Shown piece after piece: positions 2,879-35,738 of a stretch of 35,780 bases of DNA. The stretch comes from Candidatus Poribacteria bacterium. GTDB taxonomy: Bacteria; Poribacteria; WGA-4E; WGA-3G. The notes under the pieces are model-generated. The model made no database searches, was not told the DNA's origin, and saw only the letters and a list, made by a program, of their open reading frames with translations. Made by a program: the position numbers and the translations under genes. The stretch is from assembly GCA_009843785.1 (NCBI GenBank), contig VYCT01000193.1, positions 1 through 35,780 on the forward strand, given 5' to 3'. Every line of letters begins with the position of its first letter. Position 1 is the first letter of the stretch.

Positions 2879-3250
2879 CGAAATCCTCTTTTTTAGATTG
2901 CCACTACCAGCAAATTGTAGAAGTTTTGCCCGTGGATTCTCGCCGACCACCTGATACTAACACGATAGATTTTATTCTTGATTACACAAAATCTCGATTT
3001 TTCTTAAATTATGCACCCTTTTTAGGTATAAATCGCGTCACTAACAATTGAAACCTATCTTCATTTCAGGGAAAATATGCGCGAACAAACCTTATACGAT
3101 AACTTGACTGTGATTGTTGTTAGTATAATCCAACGCGGTCCGCATGTCAACCGTGATTGTTTCCCTCAGCGAATGCAAACAAATTTGCATCCCTAAACCA
3201 AATATGCTATCATATAGGAATATAAGCTAAAATTTGGTACGCTTACCTCT

Positions 3251-3373: not shown

Positions 3374-3436
3374 TAACAATGACCCAATAAGTTGAAACAC
3401 TCAAAATTAACTTTACGCCACACGGAGAAAATAGAC

Positions 3437-4081
3437 ATGACATATACCCAAAAGACCACCACTTTTTACACGGATACCGAGCTTGAACAGATTGATGAGG
3501 ATGCACTTGTCAAGCAGTTCCAGAACGGCGACACAGAGGCTTTTAATCCTCTCGTGCTGAAATATCAAAAGAAAATCTACAACCTCATGTACCAACGGGT
3601 TCGCGATCAGGAAACAGCAAAAGACCTCTGCCAGGAGGTTTTTCTGAAAGCCTTCAATGCCCTACCCAACTTCAAAGGCGGGTCCGCATTTTATAGTTGG
3701 ATTTACCGCATCGCGATCAATTGCAGTATCGACTTTCAGCGTCAACGTAACCGCGATAAGGTGCTTACGTTTGAAGAATTGCCATTTGAAGCCGACGAGG
3801 TGCTCAGAATGACCGATTCCCATCCATCTCCTGAGCGACTTCTTGATGAGAAGGAACTTGGGCTTATCATCCGCAAGGCGGTGAAGAAACTTCCACCTGG
3901 TCAGCGTCGGGTCTTTAATTTGCGGCACCGACGTGAACTTGCGATCAAAGAGATCGCGGCACTCCTAAACAGGTCAGAGGGCACGGTTAAAGCACACTTG
4001 CACCATGCACACCGGCAGCTTCAAGGTATGCTGCTCCCGTACTTGCGAAATGAACCGCTGGAATGGAACGGAGAAGTTTGA
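3437..4081 (+). CDS. ECF-type RNA polymerase sigma factor
   Basis: A 214-residue sigma-70-family regulator of the extracytoplasmic-function type. Sigma-2 is ALVKQFQNGDTEAFNPLV...LCQEVFLKAF...FYSWIYRIAINCSIDFQRQR. Sigma-4 is LPPGQRRVFNLRHRRELAIKEIAALLNRSEGTVKAHLHHAH, the last part being the -35-recognition helix-turn-helix. The frame is open to 3392, but the ATG at 3437 has GGAG (3424-3427) nine bases upstream and gives the usual ECF N-terminus, so I prefer it. ECF genes normally sit beside an anti-sigma gene. Here the next features downstream are tRNA genes and the upstream neighbour is a divergent histidine kinase, so its regulator is not evident. The target regulon is unknown. Confidence 0.92.
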   Translation: MTYTQKTTTFYTDTELEQIDEDALVKQFQNGDTEAFNPLVLKYQKKIYNLMYQRVRDQETAKDLCQEVFLKAFNALPNFKGGSAFYSWIYRIAINCSIDFQRQRNRDKVLTFEELPFEADEVLRMTDSHPSPERLLDEKELGLIIRKAVKKLPPGQRRVFNLRHRRELAIKEIAALLNRSEGTVKAHLHHAHRQLQGMLLPYLRNEPLEWNGEV

Positions 4082-23746: not shown

Positions 23747-26700
23747 ATGCGTATCCGACTCTTTTTCCTCGTTTTCTTCTGCTTGTGCCTGCTGCTATGC
23801 CTGAGAAGTACGGCACAAGAATCCCCTGATGACAAAACCAACACCCTCGAACTTCCCACCTTTTCTGTTCTCCAGAAAACGGAGTCCCTCGAACTGAAAA
23901 TCGGTGAGCAGGAATTTACGGTGAAGTACCCGCCAATTCTCCCTAACAGTGAACAGTTAGTCGCAGCGGATGGAAAAGTCCTTGTCCGAAATGTAGACTA
24001 TCAAATTGATTTCTATCCCGGAAAAATCACTATCGTAACGCCGGATGCCATAACCGACCCCTACAAATTAAAGATAACCTATCGCACACTGCCCTTCGCA
24101 ATAAAAGAGGTCTATAAACGCGACCTTTACGGTGAGCAAAACCCGGATAGCCTTCGGTTTCCATCAGCGGAGGAGTCATCAGTGAAAGAGAGGTCTGATG
24201 AGACAAACCGCTTTTTAACTGACAACCGACAACTGACAACTGACAACTATTCTCCCGATAACCAAACATCACAATTAGAAGTCTCCGGTAGCCAGACGTT
24301 CGGTATCTCGGCTGGGAGTGGGCGTGACATCACGCCGAATCAGGAATTGCGTGTTAATGTGGAGGGCAATGTCTCCGAGAATATCAGCATCCTTGCGCTG
24401 TTATCTGACCAAGACTTACCAATTCAACCCGAAGGCACAACCGAGAATATCCAAGACATCGATCAGAAGTTGGTGCGTATCACGCATCCGAACATGAGAG
24501 GCACACTCGGAGACTTTGAGGGATCACTCGGTGCCTCGGAGTTTATCTTTTTCCCACGTGCGCTCGAAGGCGTACAAGTCGAAGGCGATTTCAAGTGGGG
24601 GAAATTTCACCTCATTCCGAGTGCTATTCCGAAAGGACAGTCCACAAGCTTAGTGCTTCGTGGAGAGGAAGGACGTAGCGAATATCGCCTCACCGTCGAT
24701 GGACAATACGTCATCGTGAAAGCGGGGAGTGAAATTGTCTGGTTGAATGGCGAGCGGATGCGGCGCGGTGAGAACAACGATTACGTCATCCGTGAATATG
24801 GAGATCCGATCGTCGAATTCAACAGCAAGCACTTGATAACAAGCAACGACACGATTCGGATCGACTTTGAATATATCCCTGAAGAACGCGCATATCAACA
24901 GAATCTTTACGGACTCAGCAGTGTCTTTACACTACCCGGAGAACGGATAAGCCTCGGTGCCTCGTATGCTGTTGAGGCAGACCTAAACCAACCCGAACAG
25001 GCTTTAATCCAACTCAGAGACACCGACCTGGAGGCACTACGTCAAAATATCCTTGATCCCGAAGAAGACGGCAGATCACTTCTCACACCACCGCGGAAAC
25101 ATACAGTATGGGGTGTAGAAAGCCGCATGAATATCACCGAAAAAGCGTGGATTGAAGGCGAACTCGCTTACAGCAATCTTGATAAAAACACCTATTCCAC
25201 CGTAGACCGTAAAGAGGTGAGTCAGGCGTGGAAGCTGATCGGCTATGCAGACTGGGATTTCGCAACATGGACAGATAAACAGAATCGGGGATCCAAACCC
25301 CTCCTACACACAAATTTTGACATACGAGCAATGGATGCCGATTTTGTGCCTGTCGGCGCATCAAGTGGTAACCGCTCCCGTTCCCGTTATGAAACGCAAT
25401 ACGCCAAAGAAGGTTTTGATGATGCGTTCCTGTTTGATAGTGCAGGACGCTCGCAAATTGCCCGAGATGAGAGAGCCGCGAACTTTGACATCCGATTGAT
25501 ACCGATGGATTGGTTAGCTCTTAATGCTGGAGTCGGTAGGAGCGAAGAGAGAGAACCACAACCCACCCGAACCGTTCAGGAGGCAACGGATGCCATCGGT
25601 GGCACAGAGGTACCGTCTACCGCAAACGCAACTATCCGTGATAATTTTAATTGGGGGGTCAACTTCAATCAACGCTCGGGCAGTGGGAGTATCCTCCCTA
25701 CCCCCAGTCGTAGGGGCCAGGTCCCCTCGCCCCTACCAAGCAGGCAAACGAGAATGTCACCGGAAACACGCCATAGCGTGACTTCTGAAGAGGGGTCAGA
25801 GAAAGCACCGTCTAAGGGCGCGCAGCTCCTGAGGAAGCTACCGAATTTTCGTTGGGATGATTACCGGAGCAGTTCACGTGTGGAGAGTGAAGATTCAGCA
25901 CGAACGCAGTCGCAGCGGAAATCGCGACAAGAAGGTAACCTCTCCTATCCGCTCGGTCCGTTCAGAATTATTGGGACATTGGGCAGACTGGAATCAAACG
26001 AAGCACGCAACGCTACACTCAACCGAAAGCGGAACCGGGCGATTGGACGCGTGGATCTCGTCAAATTCAGTTGGGTGTCTGTCAACACCAGCTACGAACT
26101 TGAGGAGGCTTATGCGAAAGAACCGTTGCTCACTGTGGACGACGCACCCATCGGTCTATCCGATTGGCAGCGAAGCACGACGGCGCGGACGTGGAAAGTG
26201 GGTCTCTTTTCACAGCAAAAATCTTTTCTCAGCGGCGGGGTAAATCTGACTGCCAATCTCGCACGCCGGATGCTGAAAGCACACACGGATATCGGCGCAG
26301 ATACGACAACGCAACTCGCCGATATCAACATTCAGTTGACACCCCTCAGTCGCGCAATTGACATAGAACTCACCTACGAGTTAGATAAAAAATTGACAAG
26401 CCAACGCCACGAAATCTATACCAACATTCATCCACACACTGGTGTCTTACTTCAACCCGGCGAAGGCTATTACGTGAAGTTGGACGATCTGCACTATGTA
26501 GAAGATCCTGAGGAAGGCACCTACATCAAAATCTACCAAAATGTCGGTGATAAACCCACAACAGCGGTAGATGCCGAATTCCGTATCCGTTTTCAACCCC
26601 GTCAGTATTTCGCACGCCGTGCCAGAGCGCGCCAACAGCAGCAACGTAGGGGCGAGGGGACCTCGCCCCTACAACGCGATAGTTTACGCCCAACACCAAA

Positions 26701-27634
26701 TGGTCGTCAGTCATCAGTTATCAGTCGTCAGTTAAGAGATGGATCTGTTGAACCAGAGTCCTCTTTAACCGATAACCGAAAACTGGTAACTGTTAACTAT
26801 TTAGAATGGCTTCTGAGTGCACTCAGGGGTCAAATACGATTCTGGCTAACAGAAGAACAGGAGGTAGAAGATGCGGTGTCTCTGTATCTGCTCCAAAGCT
26901 TACAAGGTTCGGACACACTTTTCGGGCGGTTGAACCAACACCACAGACTTGAGTTTTCACCCTCACCGGCGTTCAGCCTTGAGTTCAACCTCCGCACTGG
27001 CGAGACGCTTAACAAGCGGATTAATAACCAAGAACGCCACAGGCTGCATAACACTTGGGATGTCGGTTTCTCCGTGAATCCTACGAAACGCTTGTCTGTC
27101 GGCGCAAATTGGGAACAACGTCGGGAAAACGAAAAATATAGTCAATTCAATTTTGAAAACATTGCAGCGGAAACCGATCCTACCGAAGAGATGCAAGATT
27201 CTCCGCCCACACCTATCTCAGACCTCCGTCAACTTGAACAGATAACTGAACTCAGCCTCCGATATGACCTGAACAACTCCCTAGAGTGGAGTGGTATTGG
27301 CGGCTATAAACGGACAACCGACGAGGAACAACTTGGCGAGGAACCTGAAGCTAAAACGCGCACCTTCTCTTATGAAAATCGCATCACATACAGGCTTAGC
27401 GGTAAGGGACGCATTGTTTTCAACTACAAACTCGGCTACGGCACAAGCAGCGGCGGCATCCCCTTTGCACAATATACTTTCTACGAAGGCATTAGCCACG
27501 AAATTCGTACAACAGCAGATTACAGATTACGAAAATTCACCGATCTACTCTTTCGGCTCAATTACCGTCTGCTCTCTACAAAGCACCGAAAACCCGAACA
27601 CCGCTTAGAGATGACGGTCAGCGCAGAACTTTAA
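23747..27634 (+). CDS. Very large exported protein, probable outer-membrane beta-rich protein
   Basis: 1295 residues with a strong signal peptide (LFFLVFFCLCLLLCL, cleavage near STAQ). No family is named with certainty. Two Ig-like blocks of a type seen in uncharacterised surface proteins are visible: PILPNSEQLVAADGKVLVRN...YQIDFYPGKITIV and VIVKAGSEIVWLNGERMRRG...DYVIREYGDPIVEFN. A long series of alternating, aromatic-ended strands follows to the C-terminus (LSLRYDLNNSLEWSGIGGYK, GRIVFNYKLGYG, LLFRLNYRLLS), suggesting a beta-barrel. Two HT elements, two RRGE palindromes and one TGTAGGAG element are read through in frame, giving low-complexity insertions such as NRQLTTDN, RRGQVPSPL and RRGEGTSPL. 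No Shine-Dalgarno is visible. Its stop overlaps that of the convergent sigma-WD40 gene in TTAA. Confidence 0.8.
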   Translation: MRIRLFFLVFFCLCLLLCLRSTAQESPDDKTNTLELPTFSVLQKTESLELKIGEQEFTVKYPPILPNSEQLVAADGKVLVRNVDYQIDFYPGKITIVTPDAITDPYKLKITYRTLPFAIKEVYKRDLYGEQNPDSLRFPSAEESSVKERSDETNRFLTDNRQLTTDNYSPDNQTSQLEVSGSQTFGISAGSGRDITPNQELRVNVEGNVSENISILALLSDQDLPIQPEGTTENIQDIDQKLVRITHPNMRGTLGDFEGSLGASEFIFFPRALEGVQVEGDFKWGKFHLIPSAIPKGQSTSLVLRGEEGRSEYRLTVDGQYVIVKAGSEIVWLNGERMRRGENNDYVIREYGDPIVEFNSKHLITSNDTIRIDFEYIPEERAYQQNLYGLSSVFTLPGERISLGASYAVEADLNQPEQALIQLRDTDLEALRQNILDPEEDGRSLLTPPRKHTVWGVESRMNITEKAWIEGELAYSNLDKNTYSTVDRKEVSQAWKLIGYADWDFATWTDKQNRGSKPLLHTNFDIRAMDADFVPVGASSGNRSRSRYETQYAKEGFDDAFLFDSAGRSQIARDERAANFDIRLIPMDWLALNAGVGRSEEREPQPTRTVQEATDAIGGTEVPSTANATIRDNFNWGVNFNQRSGSGSILPTPSRRGQVPSPLPSRQTRMSPETRHSVTSEEGSEKAPSKGAQLLRKLPNFRWDDYRSSSRVESEDSARTQSQRKSRQEGNLSYPLGPFRIIGTLGRLESNEARNATLNRKRNRAIGRVDLVKFSWVSVNTSYELEEAYAKEPLLTVDDAPIGLSDWQRSTTARTWKVGLFSQQKSFLSGGVNLTANLARRMLKAHTDIGADTTTQLADINIQLTPLSRAIDIELTYELDKKLTSQRHEIYTNIHPHTGVLLQPGEGYYVKLDDLHYVEDPEEGTYIKIYQNVGDKPTTAVDAEFRIRFQPRQYFARRARARQQQQRRGEGTSPLQRDSLRPTPNGRQSSVISRQLRDGSVEPESSLTDNRKLVTVNYLEWLLSALRGQIRFWLTEEQEVEDAVSLYLLQSLQGSDTLFGRLNQHHRLEFSPSPAFSLEFNLRTGETLNKRINNQERHRLHNTWDVGFSVNPTKRLSVGANWEQRRENEKYSQFNFENIAAETDPTEEMQDSPPTPISDLRQLEQITELSLRYDLNNSLEWSGIGGYKRTTDEEQLGEEPEAKTRTFSYENRITYRLSGKGRIVFNYKLGYGTSSGGIPFAQYTFYEGISHEIRTTADYRLRKFTDLLFRLNYRLLSTKHRKPEHRLEMTVSAEL
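24160..24250 (+). repeat. HT element inside the 1295-residue gene, first copy
   Basis: The right arm reads AACTGAC, AACCGAC, AACTGAC, AACTGAC, AACTATT followed by CTCC, in exact 7-base register. The left part (CATCAGCGG...GTCATCAGTGAAAGAG) is more degenerate. The frame stays open and encodes NRFLTDNRQLTTDNYS. Confidence 0.65.
25283..25308 (-). repeat. TGTAGGAG-family repeat, copy T4, inside a coding region
   Basis: On the minus strand TGTAGGAG leads into an inverted repeat GGGGTTT-GG-ATCCCC. In the sense frame it encodes NRGSKPLL within the 1295-residue protein without breaking it. Confidence 0.6.
25709..25736. repeat. GTAGGGG palindrome inside a coding region, RRGQVPSPL copy
   Basis: CGTAGGGGCCAGG and the arm CCTCGCCCCTAC form an imperfect palindrome. 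The sense frame is CGT AGG GGC, giving RRGQVPSPL, the same phase as the copies at 26646 and 31915. Confidence 0.7.
26646..26672. repeat. GTAGGGG palindrome inside a coding region, RRGEGTSPL copy
   Basis: Arms GTAGGGGCGAGG and CCTCGCCCCTAC surround GGA. It is nearly perfect and read in frame as RRGEGTSPL, about 30 bases before the second in-gene HT element. Confidence 0.75.
26699..26800 (+). repeat. HT element inside the 1295-residue gene, second copy
   Basis: The left arm reads GTCGTCA, GTCATCA, GTTATCA, GTCGTCA, GTTAAG. The right arm is TTTAACCGATAACCGAAAACTGG and TAACTGTTAACTA. The frame is maintained through the whole 100-base element, giving RQSSVISRQLRDG...LTDNRKLVTVNY in a loop between barrel-like strands. 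Confidence 0.7.
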
Positions 27635-30582
27635 GGTGATTCGGTGATAGCCTCATCCCAATCCCACAAAAAGATTGTGCCGTCTTGTGCCGTGCTAACC
27701 AGCGTTTCCCCATCAGGCGAAAATTTCAACGTCTCCACTTGCTGTGTATGCCCATCAAGCGCAGCGATTCTGTCTCCAGTCTTGGCATCCCATAATTGGA
27801 TTGTCCCGCTGCTATGCCCACTGAGGAAAATCGCGCCATCCGGTGAAAACATCAACGGTTTTGGATAATCATGGTGTATCCCCCAACCTCGTTTATGCAC
27901 AGTGCTAACCGAAAAAAGTTTATGACCGGTACGCACGTCCCATAAATGGAGTTGCCTCGGTGTACCCGCAGCGAGCAAGGCGCAGTCTGGTGAAAACGCC
28001 AATGCCGAAATATGCCTCAGATGCTCTTGTTCCATCGGTTCTGTCAGTTCTGAAAAGACGGTCAAAGCTTCGCCGGTCGCAACGTCCCACATTCGGATTT
28101 CCCCTTCTGTAGTTCCACTCACAAGCCATCTACCATCTGGTGAAAACGCCAACGCCAAAATCGTTGGCAGATTGTGGTGAAAGCCGAGGGGTAGGTCACT
28201 ATAAAGATGAAGCCCAATGACCAATTCATCGCCTGTTTCCGTATTCCATAAGCGAATGGCATCACCGGAAATAGTCGCCACCGTTTTAGTTCTATCGTCA
28301 GGAGAAAAGCTAAGTTCGCTGCTCCCTCGCTGCAATCTCGCAAGTTCGTCTCCAGTCGATACATCCATCAACCGAATTAGATTATCTGGCTTCGTAGTAG
28401 AAAACCGAATAGGGGACCCATCGAAAACTATCGTACCGTCTGCCGCTGCACTGACGAGTTTCGTGCCATCCGGTGAAAACGCTAAAGCTGAGTACCAATC
28501 CCGATGTCCTCTATTTTGGATGGTGGATTTTTGCGCTGTTTCCACATCCCAAAAGGTAATTTCACCGTTAAACGCCGCGCTGACAAGCGTGGAACTGTTC
28601 TGAAAGAAGGTCGCCGCTTTTATGGATTGTGTGTGTCCACTGATAAGGGTATCTGCTGGAGCCCCAGTCGCTGTCTGCCAGAATCGGATTGTGCCATCCT
28701 TACTCCCGCTTACGAGTGTGTTACCATCGGGTGAAAATGCTAACCCAGTAATACCGTTGATATGGCCGGTGAGCGTCGCGAGGGGTTCGCCAGTGGTGGC
28801 ATCCCACAATTGCACTGTTTTATCGGTACTGCCGCTGGCAAGCATTTTTCCATCGGGTGAAAACGCCAGCACATTTGTCGGTCCGGTATGTTTCTGCAGC
28901 GTCATCGAATCTCGATCGCCAGTGAGATCTGACAATCGGACTGTATTATCTACCCCACCACTGGCAAGACGGGTACCATCCGGCGAAAACGCCACTGCTA
29001 AAATCAGTCTACTAAACGGATGTTTGAGACGCACAGGTTTATCCAACGGCTGAAGCGGAAAATCCACGTGTCCTCTGAGCGTCGATAACTTTTTACGGGT
29101 TGCTACGTCCCATAACTGAATCATCCCGTTCTCTTTTCCAATCGCGATTTTATCGCTCGTCATCGCGTAAACACCACTAAAATCCTCTGAACTAAAGAGA
29201 CCGATCCCGAACAACCCAGTTTTAAGGTGTTTTGTTTTCCCTTTCCCGTTCTCAATATTCAATCGCGTAATCGCAGCATGCCCACCACTACTCAAACCGA
29301 TCAGCGTTTTCCCATCTGAAGAGAATCGCAATACGGAAGCATCCCCGTACAAATCAATAAGCGGCACTTCGCGCTCGGTAGCGATCTCCCACAATTGGAT
29401 GAGCCTCTCCGCAGAAGAACTGGTAAGGAAACGGCCATCCGGTGAAAAGCTGAGGGCTTCACACATCCCGCCGGCAAACAAAGATTTCTCCTCACCTGTC
29501 TCCACATCATACAACCATACCCCGATATTACTACCCACTGCAAGTAGGGTTCCATCCGGTGAAAACTGGATTGTGGTAATCCCACCTTTTCCGAAGCGCG
29601 CTTTTGCGGCTTTGGGCAGCTTCCAATGTGCGTGGTTTTTAATTGTCTCGTTTGATTCTGCTTCTACAACCGATGCTGAAACGTCGTTAGGCTGCTGACT
29701 GGAGGTTTCTCCCTCGCTCGGTGTGCTAACACTCCCAAGTTGCGTGCGAATATCGGGTTCGGCTTCAAGGTTCAGCACAATAGGTGCTTCAATGAGTTCA
29801 ACTGTCATCTCTGATGGCGCGTCGAAACTATACGGTTTTTGGAAACGCGACATATACTGATTTCCTATGCCTAACATCAAAAAGATGGCCGCTAACGTAG
29901 AAACGGCAATTGCCCACGGCACTAACGGCTTACTGTTAGATGGCGCAACCGGTTTCAACCGTGATATCTCTTGCATGATATTCTCTGTAAGGTTCGGTGT
30001 GATTTGAAAATGCTCTAAAGCCTCGCGAATCATGGGTTCCTCCTTTTTTAAGCGGCGACGTGCACGGTAGAGCCGATTCCTGATTGCCGCCTCCGATACA
30101 CCTAAAAATTCGCTAATTTCTTCGTAGGTCATTCCGCCGAGGTAATAGAGCGTGATGACCGTTCGGTCACTCTCTTGTAACTTCGCAAGCAACTTCTTGA
30201 CGACTTCGCGTTGTGTTTCCTCTGTCATCCGCTCGTTCTCCGCAATGACGTATTCCGAATACGTCGCTTTTTCTAACGGCGCCCTGCTCGTCCCTTCCAA
30301 CGCCTGCGTCCACTTCCGATTTTTCCGGAGCCACGCTTTACACTGGTTCGCGGTGATGACATACAGCCAACTCGCAAAGGACTGCGGTTCCTTCAGCGTC
30401 GAGAGGCTCTGATACGCTTTCAAGAGGGTATCTTGTGTAATATCCTCAGCAATATGGAAATCACCGATCTTTCGCCACGCAAGGGCATGAACAGATCTCT
30501 GATACTTTCCCACAAGCGCAGAGAACGCAGTATCATCGCCATCAAGGGCGCGTTGGATGAGTGCAACATCGTCATTTTTCAT
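27631..30582 (-). CDS. ECF sigma factor fused through a membrane helix to 14 WD40 repeats
   Basis: A 983-residue one-piece regulator. Sigma-2 at about 8-90 (DDTAFSALVGKYQ, AEDITQDTLLKAYQ, FASWLYVITANQCKAWLRKN). Sigma-4 at about 125-178 (LQESDRTVITLYYLGGMTYEEISEFLGV, SEAAIRNRLYRARRRL). One transmembrane segment lies at 221-240 (VPWAIAVSTLAAIFLMLGIG). A linker of about 90 residues with acidic and serine-rich stretches follows. I count 14 WD40-like blades from 332 to the end (AFSPDG...SGS.D.TVQLWD type), enough for two seven-bladed propellers. By topology sigma is cytoplasmic and the propellers extracytoplasmic. An internal AAGGAGG-5-ATG at codon 184 (30031-30045) could start a sigma-free form. 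AGAGGTG precedes the main ATG. How sigma is freed (proteolysis or separate translation) is not evident. It is paralogous to the next gene upstream. Confidence 0.93.
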   Translation of the reverse strand: MKNDDVALIQRALDGDDTAFSALVGKYQRSVHALAWRKIGDFHIAEDITQDTLLKAYQSLSTLKEPQSFASWLYVITANQCKAWLRKNRKWTQALEGTSRAPLEKATYSEYVIAENERMTEETQREVVKKLLAKLQESDRTVITLYYLGGMTYEEISEFLGVSEAAIRNRLYRARRRLKKEEPMIREALEHFQITPNLTENIMQEISRLKPVAPSNSKPLVPWAIAVSTLAAIFLMLGIGNQYMSRFQKPYSFDAPSEMTVELIEAPIVLNLEAEPDIRTQLGSVSTPSEGETSSQQPNDVSASVVEAESNETIKNHAHWKLPKAAKARFGKGGITTIQFSPDGTLLAVGSNIGVWLYDVETGEEKSLFAGGMCEALSFSPDGRFLTSSSAERLIQLWEIATEREVPLIDLYGDASVLRFSSDGKTLIGLSSGGHAAITRLNIENGKGKTKHLKTGLFGIGLFSSEDFSGVYAMTSDKIAIGKENGMIQLWDVATRKKLSTLRGHVDFPLQPLDKPVRLKHPFSRLILAVAFSPDGTRLASGGVDNTVRLSDLTGDRDSMTLQKHTGPTNVLAFSPDGKMLASGSTDKTVQLWDATTGEPLATLTGHINGITGLAFSPDGNTLVSGSKDGTIRFWQTATGAPADTLISGHTQSIKAATFFQNSSTLVSAAFNGEITFWDVETAQKSTIQNRGHRDWYSALAFSPDGTKLVSAAADGTIVFDGSPIRFSTTKPDNLIRLMDVSTGDELARLQRGSSELSFSPDDRTKTVATISGDAIRLWNTETGDELVIGLHLYSDLPLGFHHNLPTILALAFSPDGRWLVSGTTEGEIRMWDVATGEALTVFSELTEPMEQEHLRHISALAFSPDCALLAAGTPRQLHLWDVRTGHKLFSVSTVHKRGWGIHHDYPKPLMFSPDGAIFLSGHSSGTIQLWDAKTGDRIAALDGHTQQVETLKFSPDGETLVSTAQDGTIFLWDWDEAITESP
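30031..30045 (-). promoter_or_regulatory. Internal ribosome-binding site and ATG within the sigma-WD40 gene
   Basis: On the minus strand AAGGAGG (30045-30039) stands 5 bases before ATG (30033-30031), codon 184, right after sigma-4. The neighbouring sigma-less paralogue starts at the homologous ATG with a similar AAGGAG site. The site could produce a membrane-WD40 protein without sigma. Confidence 0.5.
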
Positions 30583-30952
30583 CGGACACCTCTGAAAAGG
30601 GAATGTTCATTATTTCACATCAACATATAGTGACGCGATAAGCGGAAAAATAATCTCACAATTCTGCAAAAGGTAGGAGCCAATTCATGTAAATCGGGTT
30701 GAGATTCCCGCTTGGTGATAACAAAGGGTAAGGAAACTGGCAGTTGTTCGATCTGTCTCTTTTTTTATCTGTTAGCAGAATTATAGCGTAAGTTTATAGT
30801 AGAACCCGTAATTATTTGTATACGCGGAAGGAACCGTAGAGGTGTTTTGCTTGGGTGTTTTTTCAACGTATGTGTAACAAGCGTATCAAAAAATGAGGAG
30901 GCAAGCACCTGCAACCCACAGGTCGTTACCTCCCTAACAATCTGTTTTACCA
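30583..30952. other. Intergenic region between the two WD40 genes
   Basis: 370 bases without a credible gene. It holds the leader of the sigma-WD40 gene near 30583-30600 and a GTAGGAGCC sequence near 30675 that faintly resembles the TGTAGGAG family. No clear terminator for the upstream WD40 gene or consensus promoter was found. Confidence 0.5.
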
Positions 30953-33298
30953 TTATTCGCTTTTGGGTGACCCCGTGAGGCCTTCATTCCAATCCCACAA
31001 GAGTATTGTACCATCTGTGGCAGCACTGACGAGCGTTGTACCATCCGGTGAAAATGCTAACGTGTTTACGCGTTTTGTATGCCCATCAAGCGCAGCGATT
31101 TTCTCTCCCGTCTTAACGTCCCATAATTGGATTGTACCGTTGTAAAGCCCACTAACAAGCACCTCGCCATCCGGCGAAAATACCAACAGTTCCAACAGTT
31201 CGGCAGAACCAGTGGAGGACCTGTCTTGCCTATGCCCAATCCTAATGGGGAGAAGCTCATTAGCCGTATCGACTTCCCACAAATGGATGTTACCACTTGT
31301 TCCGGCGGCGAGCAAGGCACCGTCTGGCGAAAATGCCAACGCCCGAGCTCTCAGTGCCTTCGACTCTGCAAAGGCAACCAGTGCCGCACCGGTCGCAACG
31401 TCCCACATTTGGATTTCTCCCTTTGAAGTACCACTGACGAGCCATCTACTATCTGGCGAAAACGCTAATGACCAAACCCAGGGTATATTGCGAATAATAC
31501 CGGGACCCAGATTCCTCACATCAGCGAGAGGTATTGCCACTTCATCACCCGTGTCCGTGTTCCACAAGCGAATTTCACCCAGACCCCTAAAGGCAACCGT
31601 TTTGCCATCAGGAGAAAAGGTCAGTTTTTCGGCACCTCTACCATATTGCAAGGTTGCCAGTCCACGCCCTGTCTTTACATCCGTCAGGTGAATAAAATGA
31701 TATGCCCGATAAGACGCAACAGGCTGGCGGAAACTTGTGCCTGCCCCGAAGATTGGAGTCCCTTCTTCTACGCCTAAACTAACGAGTTTTGTGCCATCGG
31801 GTGAAAATGCTAAAGTTACGAACCAATCCCGATGTTCCGTATGGTGGACAGTGGACTTTTGCGATGTTTTCACATCCCACAAGGTAATTACACCATTAAA
31901 CGCCACACTTGCAAGTAGGGGCGAGGTTACCTCGCCCCTACGATCTTCCAAGAAAGTCGCTGCTTTCGTCAACTGCGTGTGTCCAGTGATACGGTCAGCC
32001 AACGGAGCCCGAGTTTGTGTATTCCAGAAGCGGATCATGCCATCTGCGCTGCCGCTCACAAGCGTGCTGCCATCGGGCGAAAACGCTAACGCAGTAATAC
32101 CGTTGATATGACCCCTAAATGTCGCGAGCGGTTCTCCCGTGGTGGCGTTCCACAACTGCACCGTTTTATCGGTACTCCCACTGGCAAGCATTTTTCCGTT
32201 CGGAGAAAAGGCTAACACGTTTGTCCAACCCTTATGTTTTTCGAGTGTCATCCATTCGTCGGCGTTAGTGAGATCCCATAATCGCACCGTCGTATCGTCG
32301 CCTCCACTGGCAAGGCGCGTGCCATCGGGTGAAAACGCTAACGCTAAAATCTGATTTTTAGGCCGTGGTCTGTGAGGCACAGGTTCATCCAACGGCTGAG
32401 ACATCAAATCTATATGGTGGCCTCTGAGCGCAGGTAACGCTTCGCGGGTGGCTGTGTCCCATAACTGAATCTTCCCATCCGTCCGCCCACCCGCGATCTT
32501 ATCGCGTGTAATTGCGTAAACTCGATTTATCGGACGCAACCGGCCAATTGGCGCAGGACTGAAGAAAGGCTTCGCAGTCACCCTTCCAGTTTCAATATCC
32601 AAACTGATAATCGCATCTCCTGAACCGCCCACACTGACAAGCGTTTTCCCATCTGAAGTAAAACGTAACACTAAAGCGGTATCATAGACCTCAGGGAGTA
32701 ACACTTCACGTCCGGTCGCGATCTCCCACAACTGGACGCTCGGCGCGTCAGTCTCATATTCACCGCCGTTGGCAAGGAAACGACCATCCGGCGAAAATGC
32801 AAGAAATCGGCACGCGCCCTTAAACAAAGACTGCTCTTCACCTGTCTCCACATCGTACAGCCATATACCGATGTTACTCCCGACCGCGAGTTGCCTGCCG
32901 TCCGGTGAAAACTGAATGGCGTTAACGCCGCCCTTACCGAAACGCGCTTTCGCCGCTTTGGGCAGATGCCATTGAGAATAGTCTGTATCCGTTTCCTCTG
33001 ATTGCGCTTCCGCAACCAATGCCGAAATATCGTTGGGCTGCTGATTGGCGGTATCGCTTTCGCTCGGTGTATTGACATTTCCCAACTGGGTACGAACATC
33101 TGGCTTGGATTCAAGGTTCAGCACCACGGGTGCCTCAATGCGTTTAACTGTCATCAGCAGCAGAACCCCTATCACCGAAGCGATGATTGTCCATGACACT
33201 AACAGTTTAGTAGATTTGGTGGTACATAGCATTTCACGTGTCGCGCGCTGCATGGCATTTGACGTGAATTGAAGGTTGCCCAAGCCATCGCGAATCAT
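30953..33298 (-). CDS. Membrane-anchored 14-repeat WD40 protein, sigma-less paralogue
   Basis: 781 residues, closely parallel to the second part of the sigma-WD40 protein: MIRDGLGNLQFT aligns with MIREALEHFQIT. A transmembrane segment at about 33-52 (LLVSWTIIASVIGVLLLMTV) follows, then the same linker (EAPVVLNLESKPDVRTQLG, SQQPND-like NQQPND) and about 14 WD40 blades. AAGGAG 6 bases before ATG 33298 fixes the start. Upstream codons in the same frame still read HLRKEKP, matching LKKEEP of the sigma-4 end, before homology is lost; this shows the gene lost its sigma portion. One blade contains an RRGEVTSPLL insertion from a palindrome (31915-31941). Probably an extracytoplasmic propeller scaffold or sensor; partner unknown. 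Confidence 0.92.
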   Translation of the reverse strand: MIRDGLGNLQFTSNAMQRATREMLCTTKSTKLLVSWTIIASVIGVLLLMTVKRIEAPVVLNLESKPDVRTQLGNVNTPSESDTANQQPNDISALVAEAQSEETDTDYSQWHLPKAAKARFGKGGVNAIQFSPDGRQLAVGSNIGIWLYDVETGEEQSLFKGACRFLAFSPDGRFLANGGEYETDAPSVQLWEIATGREVLLPEVYDTALVLRFTSDGKTLVSVGGSGDAIISLDIETGRVTAKPFFSPAPIGRLRPINRVYAITRDKIAGGRTDGKIQLWDTATREALPALRGHHIDLMSQPLDEPVPHRPRPKNQILALAFSPDGTRLASGGDDTTVRLWDLTNADEWMTLEKHKGWTNVLAFSPNGKMLASGSTDKTVQLWNATTGEPLATFRGHINGITALAFSPDGSTLVSGSADGMIRFWNTQTRAPLADRITGHTQLTKAATFLEDRRGEVTSPLLASVAFNGVITLWDVKTSQKSTVHHTEHRDWFVTLAFSPDGTKLVSLGVEEGTPIFGAGTSFRQPVASYRAYHFIHLTDVKTGRGLATLQYGRGAEKLTFSPDGKTVAFRGLGEIRLWNTDTGDEVAIPLADVRNLGPGIIRNIPWVWSLAFSPDSRWLVSGTSKGEIQMWDVATGAALVAFAESKALRARALAFSPDGALLAAGTSGNIHLWEVDTANELLPIRIGHRQDRSSTGSAELLELLVFSPDGEVLVSGLYNGTIQLWDVKTGEKIAALDGHTKRVNTLAFSPDGTTLVSAATDGTILLWDWNEGLTGSPKSE
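31915..31941. repeat. GTAGGGG palindrome inside the WD40 gene, RRGEVTSPL copy
   Basis: Arms GTAGGGGCGAGG and CCTCGCCCCTAC surround TTA, a perfect palindrome outside the centre. On the sense (minus) strand it encodes RRGEVTSPL in place of a short loop (SSTLV) in the paralogue, between FLED and ASVAFNG. Confidence 0.8.
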
Positions 33299-33836: not shown

Positions 33837-35738
33837 CTATTCGTTAAGATTGAAGTGAAGTACACCATTGTTCCACGTACCGACATACAACACGTTCCCA
33901 TCAACAGCAAACGAGGTCACCCGTTCCGGCACTTCTGAAGCAACCTCTTTCCACGTGCCGTTTTCCAATTGATACACTGCTGTCTTGGAAACACCATAAA
34001 GCGTTGTGCCATCGACTGCTAATCGCCCGATAATGAGAGGCGTTCCGGCTGCATCGGTGATCGCACGCCACTGTTTGCCATCATTTGACGCAGCAACACC
34101 TGCATCCATTGCTACATACACGGTAGAACCCACAAACACCATATCATGAAAAGCTTTAACGGGAAATGGCAAGCTTGGCGTAAGGTCAATCCAATTATTC
34201 CCCTTATCAAACGAGACGACGAGGTGTCCATCCCGTTTGCCGACGTAGAGGGTATTTTCTGAAGCCGCAAGTTTCAGTTCTCTGAATGCCAATTGCGAAG
34301 TCAGTTCAACGGTTTCTTCCTGCTCGGTGTCGTACCATTCAGTATCACCCGGTTCCCATCGGAGGAGTTTATAGTTGTACTCCATATAGAACGTATCACG
34401 GCTAACAGCAAACGCCCCCTTACGGAACCCTAATTGCGTATATATATCCGGCTGTTGCGGATCCGATTTCACCAGCTGTCTGAAAAACTCTGCCGCACCG
34501 GTAGATTTTTCTTGCAACTGTTTGATGACTGATGCTTCTGGTAAATTAGGATCGTTCATCCTTTGCATCCTTCTTTCATGCATCCAGAACGTTAATTCCA
34601 TTGCGTCAAGGATTGGCATGCCTTGTATCGGTATAAGCGAATTGCTATCTGTAGATACACGATATATCCGCGTTTTTCCTCTACCAAGCGAATCTCCGCC
34701 TTTTGCGTAGATTTTACCATCAGCTTTGACGATATGGGTAATACGTGGTGGTTCCTCTCGATCTGGTTCCGTCATCGGCATTTCTATTTGGACATCCTGC
34801 CACGATGTACCCTTATCCGTCGTTTTTACGACCTTTTCTTCTTCATATCTCGCGTAGAGCGTCAGAGGTATGTTATCCCCTTTACTGTTTTCTCTATATG
34901 CGATCAGATTACCTATTTGACCCGTATCCTGAGTGATGTTTACGATGTCCCACGATTTGCCCCCATCGGTCGAACGATGGAGTCCATCTTCCCAACCATC
35001 AACATAAAAAACACGCTCGTTTACCGCTATCGCAATGTCTACATCAGCATTCATTGCAGGGGACGTACCGGGTAATTGTACGGGTAGCCACGTGTCTCCA
35101 CCATCGGTAGAACGCACCATTCCTTGTTCCATAGCCAAAAGTGTGTCACCCGCAGCAATAAGTTTAACAAAAGGCGGCCATCCTTTTACTGCCCAAGCGT
35201 TTGTCGGCGTAATATCGTCCCACGAATTCCCCAAATCAGTTGAACGGAATATCCACCAAGCTTGCAGCAGCCCCCTGGAAACTTTACGAGGATCCGCGGA
35301 TATCTCTGCTGCAACATAAAGATTCTTTTCTGTTGCAGCAACTGAACGGACCAGACTGACAGATACCGGAAATTTAACGCTTTGCCAGCTATCAGTACCG
35401 AGGCGGTAGAGTCCATTTCCTGTACCAGCAAACAATGTGTCTTGAATATTGACTATAGAGCGGATATACCCCATATTCCCCATCATTAACCCATCGTTTA
35501 TTGCCTTCCACGTTTTACCGTTATCTTCAGAACGGAAAATTCCCCTGTCAAAAGCGGCATAAAACGCTCGCTCTGTTAGTATCAAGCCAATAGCATCATA
35601 AAGTCCATCTGGCAAAGTGTTTACCAAATTCCATGTCTGACCATCGTCCTTTGAAGCAAAAAATTCGTTAGCCAGCATAACGTAGAGCGTATTTTTCCAT
35701 TTTGTGATAGGTACATTCGGAGGCAGCACTCTTACCAA
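33837..35738 (-). CDS. Asp-box (BNR/sialidase-like) propeller protein, 5'-truncated
   Basis: The frame gives 633 residues made of Asp-box repeats: FFASKDDGQTWNLV, IFRSEDNGKTWKAI, IFRSTDLGNSWDDI, MVRSTDGGDTWLPV, GLHRSTDGGKSWDIV, VVKTTDKGTSWQDV, VSFDKGNNWIDL and others. Such repeats build beta-propellers of the VPS10/sialidase/YCF48 kind. A middle segment (MERRMQRMNDPNLPEASVIK...) is helical. No start codon of quality exists: TTG 35738 has no ribosome site, no signal peptide or membrane segment follows, and an in-frame TAA lies eight codons upstream in AT-rich sequence. I infer loss of an N-terminal part, or a frameshift or rearrangement near the window edge. The neighbouring propeller genes suggest the missing part could be a sigma or membrane region, but this is unproven. 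Confidence 0.72.
   Translation of the reverse strand: MVRVLPPNVPITKWKNTLYVMLANEFFASKDDGQTWNLVNTLPDGLYDAIGLILTERAFYAAFDRGIFRSEDNGKTWKAINDGLMMGNMGYIRSIVNIQDTLFAGTGNGLYRLGTDSWQSVKFPVSVSLVRSVAATEKNLYVAAEISADPRKVSRGLLQAWWIFRSTDLGNSWDDITPTNAWAVKGWPPFVKLIAAGDTLLAMEQGMVRSTDGGDTWLPVQLPGTSPAMNADVDIAIAVNERVFYVDGWEDGLHRSTDGGKSWDIVNITQDTGQIGNLIAYRENSKGDNIPLTLYARYEEEKVVKTTDKGTSWQDVQIEMPMTEPDREEPPRITHIVKADGKIYAKGGDSLGRGKTRIYRVSTDSNSLIPIQGMPILDAMELTFWMHERRMQRMNDPNLPEASVIKQLQEKSTGAAEFFRQLVKSDPQQPDIYTQLGFRKGAFAVSRDTFYMEYNYKLLRWEPGDTEWYDTEQEETVELTSQLAFRELKLAASENTLYVGKRDGHLVVSFDKGNNWIDLTPSLPFPVKAFHDMVFVGSTVYVAMDAGVAASNDGKQWRAITDAAGTPLIIGRLAVDGTTLYGVSKTAVYQLENGTWKEVASEVPERVTSFAVDGNVLYVGTWNNGVLHFNLNE

Follow-up and report, generated by a model that had tools for sequence, protein, structure and literature searches.

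Bacteria usually widen their surface sensing with additional histidine kinases or with separate sigma/anti-sigma pairs, each with a regulon of its own. RsgI anti-sigma factors are proteins separate from their sigma factors. In the RsgI/SigI systems of Clostridium thermocellum, several membrane sensors work in parallel (nine RsgI, with different substrates and cleavage by RseP; PMC12203970). IutY of Pseudomonas putida (ECF243) combines an N-terminal ECF sigma factor, one membrane segment, and an extracytoplasmic C-terminal part in one chain (PMC5411451, PMC8999054). It is freed by Prc and RseP and becomes an RseP substrate once cut to ∼50 periplasmic residues (PMC5411451). The ECF48, ECF52, and ECF53 groups of Actinobacteria, for example SCO4117, likewise consist of a sigma factor, a membrane helix, and an extracytoplasmic domain, with proposed proteolytic release (PMC8999054). 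ECF57 and other ECF-WD40 proteins of Planctomycetes carry C-terminal WD40 repeats and show lineage-specific expansion (PMC8999054; for Tuwongella, PMC8567305); in ECF57, a conserved pair of cysteines is described as a potential bridge between sigma 2 and sigma 4 (PMC8999054). ECF factors of Tuwongella were recovered in detergent fractions (PMC8567305), and an ECF expansion in Gemmataceae is cited in PMC11032199. Poribacteria are rich in WD40 proteins (PMC3909097), and we found no report in the searchable literature that links them with WD40 sigma factors or sigma fusions.

Here, we describe an ECF sigma factor of Candidatus Poribacteria that shares the one-chain order of sigma, membrane segment, and outer part with IutY and the actinobacterial groups, and the C-terminal WD40 repeats and lineage-specific expansion with ECF57. 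Its gene lies on a contig of 35,780 bases (C278), which was analyzed as a whole (the window) and belongs to a 6.17-Mb draft genome. An earlier note on this DNA had stated correctly that ECF factors with C-terminal WD40 extensions are known (ECF57, Planctomycetes; PMC8999054). It had also taken the protein for an unusual case, a view that the analysis does not support: the same genome encodes ∼40 proteins of this type, which belong to a family found throughout Poribacteria. We consider it rather likely that the protein is a one-piece transmembrane receptor, and that many sensors free the same kind of sigma factor by regulated intramembrane proteolysis.

Domain layout of the 983-residue protein

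The gene forms one frame with an ATG start and zero internal stops in the ORF list (Table 1). Sigma-2, sigma-4, one membrane segment, a linker, and the WD40 part had been placed in a single frame of 983 residues from the outset, and ORF, domain matches, hydropathy, and structural model agree on this architecture as read from the sequence.

Table 1. Features of the tethered sigma gene and its surroundings, in positions of the window
Feature	Position	Strand	Basis or remark
Second ECF promoter motif in the window	3012..3040	+	before stand-alone ECF sigma gene
Tethered sigma gene, complete	27631..30582	-	ORF, orthologues, dN/dS
14 WD40 blades, residues 326-974	27661..29607	-	PF00400, E 3.6e-83; model; Foldseek
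Juxtamembrane stretch, residues 240-320	29623..29865	-	conservation; pLDDT <50 at 205-320
Single membrane helix, residues 221-239	29866..29922	-	hydropathy; model helix 223-236; position kept in paralogues
Conserved linker, residues 190-210, around FQITPNLTENIMQEISRLKP	29953..30015	-	alignments; model helix 198-208
Sigma region 4, residues 127-178	30049..30204	-	Sigma70_r4_2 PF08281, E 3.3e-17
Sigma region 2, residues 23-89	30316..30516	-	Sigma70_r2 PF04542, E 5.7e-15
Shine-Dalgarno-like AGAGGTG	30587..30593	-	sequence; good ribosome-binding site ahead of ATG
Predicted ECF promoter of the sigma gene, TGAGAT-N17-CGTCA	30631..30658	-	variant of TGCAMC-N17/18-CGTCA family motif
Sigma-less paralogue	30953..33298	-	linker, membrane helix, and WD40 part kept; 61% identical over 662 aa

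The sigma superfamily model TIGR02937 (Sigma70-ECF) matches residues 19-181 (E 2.7e-30, over its cut-off). Regions 2 and 4 are present without regions 1 and 3, as in ECF sigma factors (sigma-70 group 4), and the nearest solved structures to the sigma part are SigW and RpoE. The acidic core-binding motif of region 2.2 (DAED-like) is kept as I-A-E-D; among 56 paralogues it reads IAEE or IAED in 34 and xAEE in most others. Activation via phosphorylation, as in EcfP, was rejected because this acidic motif is retained.

Between sigma 4 and the membrane, the AlphaFold2 model contains ∼35 residues with one helix and no visible classical anti-sigma domain. The linker (residues 190-210) would hardly accommodate a class I anti-sigma domain of the classical type, and a domain of this kind between sigma and membrane was rejected, as the segment is too short and forms a single helix. 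Hydropathy has a single maximum along the chain, at residues 221-239 (KD 2.15). The juxtamembrane stretch contains a conserved segment of ∼40 residues (RFQKPYSFDAxSEMTVELIEAPIVLNL...RTQLG), followed by a variable linker of low confidence or disorder and then by the propellers.

Structure prediction of the full chain, which had been proposed as a check, gave an AlphaFold2 model (41 family sequences; mean pLDDT 68, pTM 0.54) that is helical in residues 1-188, has further helices at 198-208 and 223-236, the latter being the membrane helix, and is all beta in residues 326-974. Fourteen FSPDG-type blade positions were counted by eye in the translated sequence. The best Foldseek matches in the PDB are double WD40 propellers, including AIP1 (1nr0) and several axonemal proteins of ∼610 residues. 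The number of 14 blades claimed by the earlier note therefore stands, and the double-propeller matches support its arrangement of 2x7, which stays a model at the pTM given above; the WD40 part is best read as two 7-bladed propellers.

Proposed sigma release and the promoter motif of the family

In the mechanism that we propose, the short linker and the single helix would connect the cytoplasmic ECF sigma factor (residues 1-183) with a double WD40 propeller on the outer side of the inner membrane, and this tether would hold sigma away from promoters. Binding of a ligand or protein by the propellers would expose the juxtamembrane stretch to a site-1 protease that cuts within residues 240-320, the presumed site of initial cleavage. 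By analogy with described systems, an RseP-type site-2 protease would then cut the membrane helix and free sigma. Free sigma would transcribe from TGCAMC/GCGTCA promoters and, as the receptor genes have such promoters too, would exert positive feedback. Proteolytic release, modeled on IutY, is plausible. The host encodes an RseP-like site-2 protease (C314) and three S41 (Prc-like) proteases, which are general enzymes whose presence says little on sigma release.

Sigma could instead be active while tethered. A ligand would then dimerize or reorient the chain, and sigma would bind RNA polymerase at the membrane without any proteolysis. ToxR and CadC are membrane-bound one-component activators that work without proteolytic release. 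The strong conservation of the membrane helix position and of the juxtamembrane stretch would fit a signal-transmitting helix too, and the stretch from sigma 4 to the membrane shows no inhibitory anti-sigma domain. However, in described fusions of sigma with anti-sigma, sigma works once it has been freed (IutY; PMC8999054, PMC5411451), tethering would seem ill suited to a holoenzyme in which sigma has to depart together with RNA polymerase, and the host does possess an S2P protease. We therefore regard action in the tethered state as unlikely and prefer release by proteolysis.

The host genome contains 78 region-2 matches, among them 56 proteins that match the window sigma domain at E <1e-45, and 41 copies of a profile spanning linker, membrane helix, and juxtamembrane segment. 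The same profile has matches in 68 of 85 genomes of the phylum, with at least 56 copies in the top genome, and 0 matches in 12 genomes outside the order. In a scan of genome contigs, the 80 matches listed were all from Candidatus Poribacteria MAGs. Judged by these matches, the tethered family is an expansion of Poribacteria that reaches its greatest size in two genera of a single family.

A motif, TTGCAGAATTATGCAMC-N-GCGTCACTATA, is common to the regions upstream of 188 family genes. The boxes TG[CA]A[AC]C and CGT[CAT][AT] are separated by a spacing of 18 in 58 of these regions and of 17 in 17, whereas any other spacing is found in at most 3. TGCAMC-N16-19-CGTCA is present in 65 of the 188 regions, compared with 0-1 at control spacings, and the CGTCA box lies at a median of 53 nt upstream of the start codon. 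Strict sites number 26 in the host genome versus 2 for the reversed pattern, and 11 of the 26 are located within 300 nt upstream of family genes (expected, 0.03). Several paralogues are without a clear motif, and the −35 element of the window gene is a variant. At the same place, three of four orthologue promoters have TGAAAC, TGAGAT, or TGAGAC with CGTCA or CATCA, and the fourth has GCAACC/GCGTCA. On the protein side, conservation in the 56 paralogues is 79% in the recognition helix, 73% in the region 2.4 loop, and 49% in the inter-domain linker. Because many family genes appear to have this ECF promoter in common, the family probably reads a shared promoter, autoregulates, and has common targets and one specificity. 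As the DNA-reading parts of the paralogues are alike, many sensors would feed one overlapping regulon, not dozens of separate ones.

The second motif copy in the window precedes a stand-alone ECF sigma gene (3392-4081, +), which could act as master regulator or be a target itself. Conceivably, this or another ECF factor reads the motif and switches on the receptor family, while the tethered sigmas target other genes. Indeed, the motif is also kept before the 96% identical orthologue of 3392-4081 in a second species (G082). Non-family sites common to the host and G082 lie before a secreted 245-aa protein, a STAS protein, an ABC ATPase, and 3392-4081, and their flanks differ slightly from those of family genes (GCGTCATTAA versus GCGTCACTATA). 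However, over 85 genomes the motif count, which rests on pattern searches of whole genomes, scales with linker-family copy number, whereas reversed-pattern control counts do not (rho 0.89 versus 0.10; the former is partly circular, because the counted sites include those of the family genes, and the genomes are related). Moreover, family members keep the segments that contact DNA, which is what use of one common promoter would demand. Control by another ECF factor thus seems a minor prospect, and recognition of the motif by the tethered sigmas themselves is the reading that we follow.

Sensors, topology, and genuineness

The sensors behind the common module comprise WD40 propellers, BNR/Ycf48-like propellers, Ig-like, C-type lectin, DUF3108-transglutaminase, carboxypeptidase-regulatory (CarboxypepD_reg), SdrD_B, and LolA-like tandem domains ("LolA-like" being our description of domains without a Pfam match). 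Cytoplasmic-type partners, namely DnaN clamp, TPR, AhpC/TSA peroxiredoxin, prolyl oligopeptidase, and HTH, come without a membrane helix. The helix accompanies 170 of 175 extracytoplasmic-type partners versus 0 of 10 others (Fisher P 3e-13, a guide only, as the sequences are related and the sensor classes, assigned by regular expression, are rough).

The C terminus of the window protein is placed outside because sigma must be cytoplasmic and the chain has one helix. Signal peptides on the nearest WD40 relatives that stand alone make an extracytoplasmic location of the propellers very probable. Both this and the match between partner type and membrane helix lend new support to the location proposed in the earlier note. 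Examples of such relatives in the host genome are L207, L209, L210, and L211 (40-51% identical). L207 is 51% identical to the WD40 part over 660 aa, and L209 (50%) lies directly behind a sigma-WD40 gene on C270. Similarly, L041 has a lectin-type partner that shares 37.6% identity with a signal-peptide protein ∼7 kb off on the same contig.

A cytoplasmic propeller part, acting as a scaffold for interactions in the way suggested for ECF57, with a hydrophobic stretch that does not span the membrane, is a very unlikely alternative. For ECF57, the WD40 extensions are described as domains for protein interaction (PMC8999054). A few members of the family do have BNR or WD40 propellers but no helix, so that an outside location is not obligatory for a propeller. 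Against a cytoplasmic scaffold, free-standing relatives of the WD40 part are secreted, C-type lectin and SdrD_B/CarboxypepD_reg sensors come after the same helix, and cytoplasmic partners do without it. We therefore retain the extracytoplasmic placement.

The propellers without linker and membrane helix are L067, L040, and L105 (sigma-BNR) and L073 (sigma-WD40). A soluble propeller-sigma subfamily may exist; helix-less BNR fusions have a similar junction in two genomes. In three further frames, L044:2032-3762 (+), L026:1435-2811 (+), and L248:3787-5511 (-), a family ECF sigma factor is joined to a DnaN sliding clamp, and the membrane helix is absent. The clamp is complete, with its three domains, in L044 and L248, whose promoter boxes are identical. 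Frames of ∼575-617 aa with clamp matches are found in most of the 38 genomes of the genus, alongside the normal dnaN of ∼371 aa, and the fusion to sigma is confirmed for only L026, L044, and L248. Other soluble sigma fusions (among L050, L072, L074, L024/L019/L053, and L013) carry AhpC/TSA peroxiredoxin (L072, with an additional weak TPR match), prolyl oligopeptidase, HTH, or a TPR-looking repeat domain that has no Pfam match.

Between the window gene and its WD40 orthologues, dS is 0.19-0.38 in the WD40 part and 0.65-2.1 in the sigma part. This difference in synonymous divergence shows that sigma and sensor have recombined between paralogues. The nearest relatives of the window sigma domain are sigma domains of BNR proteins (L096 and L102). 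A sigma tree with 180 tips and 15 sensor classes requires at least 48 class changes, compared with 75-85 for shuffled labels; on this tree, sensor classes are clustered yet often swapped. The secreted lectin-type protein L187 and its sigma-tethered homologue L041, neighbors on C31 of G000, have nearly identical promoters. L041 suggests that a sigma-plus-anchor module took the place of a signal peptide.

As had been noted before, no anti-sigma gene is adjacent: the 3′ neighbor is convergent, and the 5′ neighbor is the sigma-less paralogue. The start of the latter aligns with the Met at residue 184 of the sigma gene, and no sigma remnant is seen in the sequence upstream of it. A similar sigma-less gene is L090:7177-8481 (+), and such genes adjoin tethered sigma genes in two species; possible roles of sigma-less members are decoys, co-receptors, or domain-exchange donors. 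The convergent neighbor (23747-27634, +) overlaps the sigma gene by 4 nt at its 3′ end and encodes 1295 aa with a signal-like N terminus. It has no Pfam match, and its product resembles a large outer-membrane protein. For the BNR ORF 33837-35738, truncation of a sigma fusion at the end of the contig was considered; in-frame stops precede its start. The zinc anti-sigma domain zf-HC2 has 7 matches genome-wide and 0 on the window contig, and there is no TonB-dependent receptor gene among the neighbors examined.

Full-length orthologues are 83% (L087), 83% (L101), 82% (L091), and 77% (L119) identical to the window protein, and L091 is located in a closed Poribacteria chromosome (OX639973). An assembly chimera or frameshift, which the earlier note had named as fatal to its claim, is ruled out because these orthologues span the full length in four other genomes, one of them closed. 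The dN/dS ratios are 0.08-0.14 for the sigma part, 0.09-0.15 for linker and membrane helix, and 0.21-0.40 for the WD40 part; by this measure, purifying selection acts on all parts of the protein. The adjoining sigma-less paralogue demonstrates that a WD40 part can stand without sigma, but a decayed sigma remnant or an assembly join onto a surface protein is hardly credible, as it is already contradicted by the orthologues, by the sigma dN/dS of ∼0.1, and by the residues kept in sigma 2 and sigma 4.

Comparison with known systems

In the window family, a single chain comprises sensor and sigma factor, copies swap their outer domains, and many of them have a common promoter type. More tentatively, some 20-56 sensors per genome, with outer domains swapped onto one sigma-plus-membrane module, might converge on a single promoter class, and the receptors might amplify their own expression. 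Such convergence would be a many-to-one wiring that is undescribed for ECF factors in the searchable literature, with the sigma factor as the common currency of dozens of surface receptors. It would offer a handle on environmental sensing in these uncultured, often sponge-associated bacteria, and a template that could be used as it stands for synthetic one-protein receptors. Because the promoter is shared, the idea lends itself to a direct test.

In contrast to canonical ECF systems with a class I (ZAS) anti-sigma factor, the window locus has no separate adjacent zinc anti-sigma gene. ECF48, ECF52, and ECF53 combine different outer domains with a zinc anti-sigma domain; the window protein shows none of these. 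The outer part of IutY is a cell-surface-signaling anti-sigma domain driven by an outer-membrane receptor, whereas the window protein exposes a double WD40 propeller directly; a FecR-type periplasmic anti-sigma domain is absent from this WD40 outer part. Proteolysis is known for IutY, whereas for the window family, with its ∼40 members per genome and interchangeable sensors, we only infer release.

The cysteine pair of ECF57 is not found in the window protein, which has Cys81 but Tyr153. Among the paralogues, Cys81 is present in 53/56 and Cys153 in 16/56, so that at most 16/56 have both. We did not file the protein under ECF57, from whose description it departs in the second cysteine. The module of linker, membrane helix, and juxtamembrane segment and the shared promoter are, unlike ECF57, described here for Poribacteria. 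ECF-WD40 fusions (ECF57, Planctomycetes) and fused sigma/anti-sigma proteins (IutY) are thus already known; new are the heavy expansion, the interchangeable sensors, and the shared promoter.
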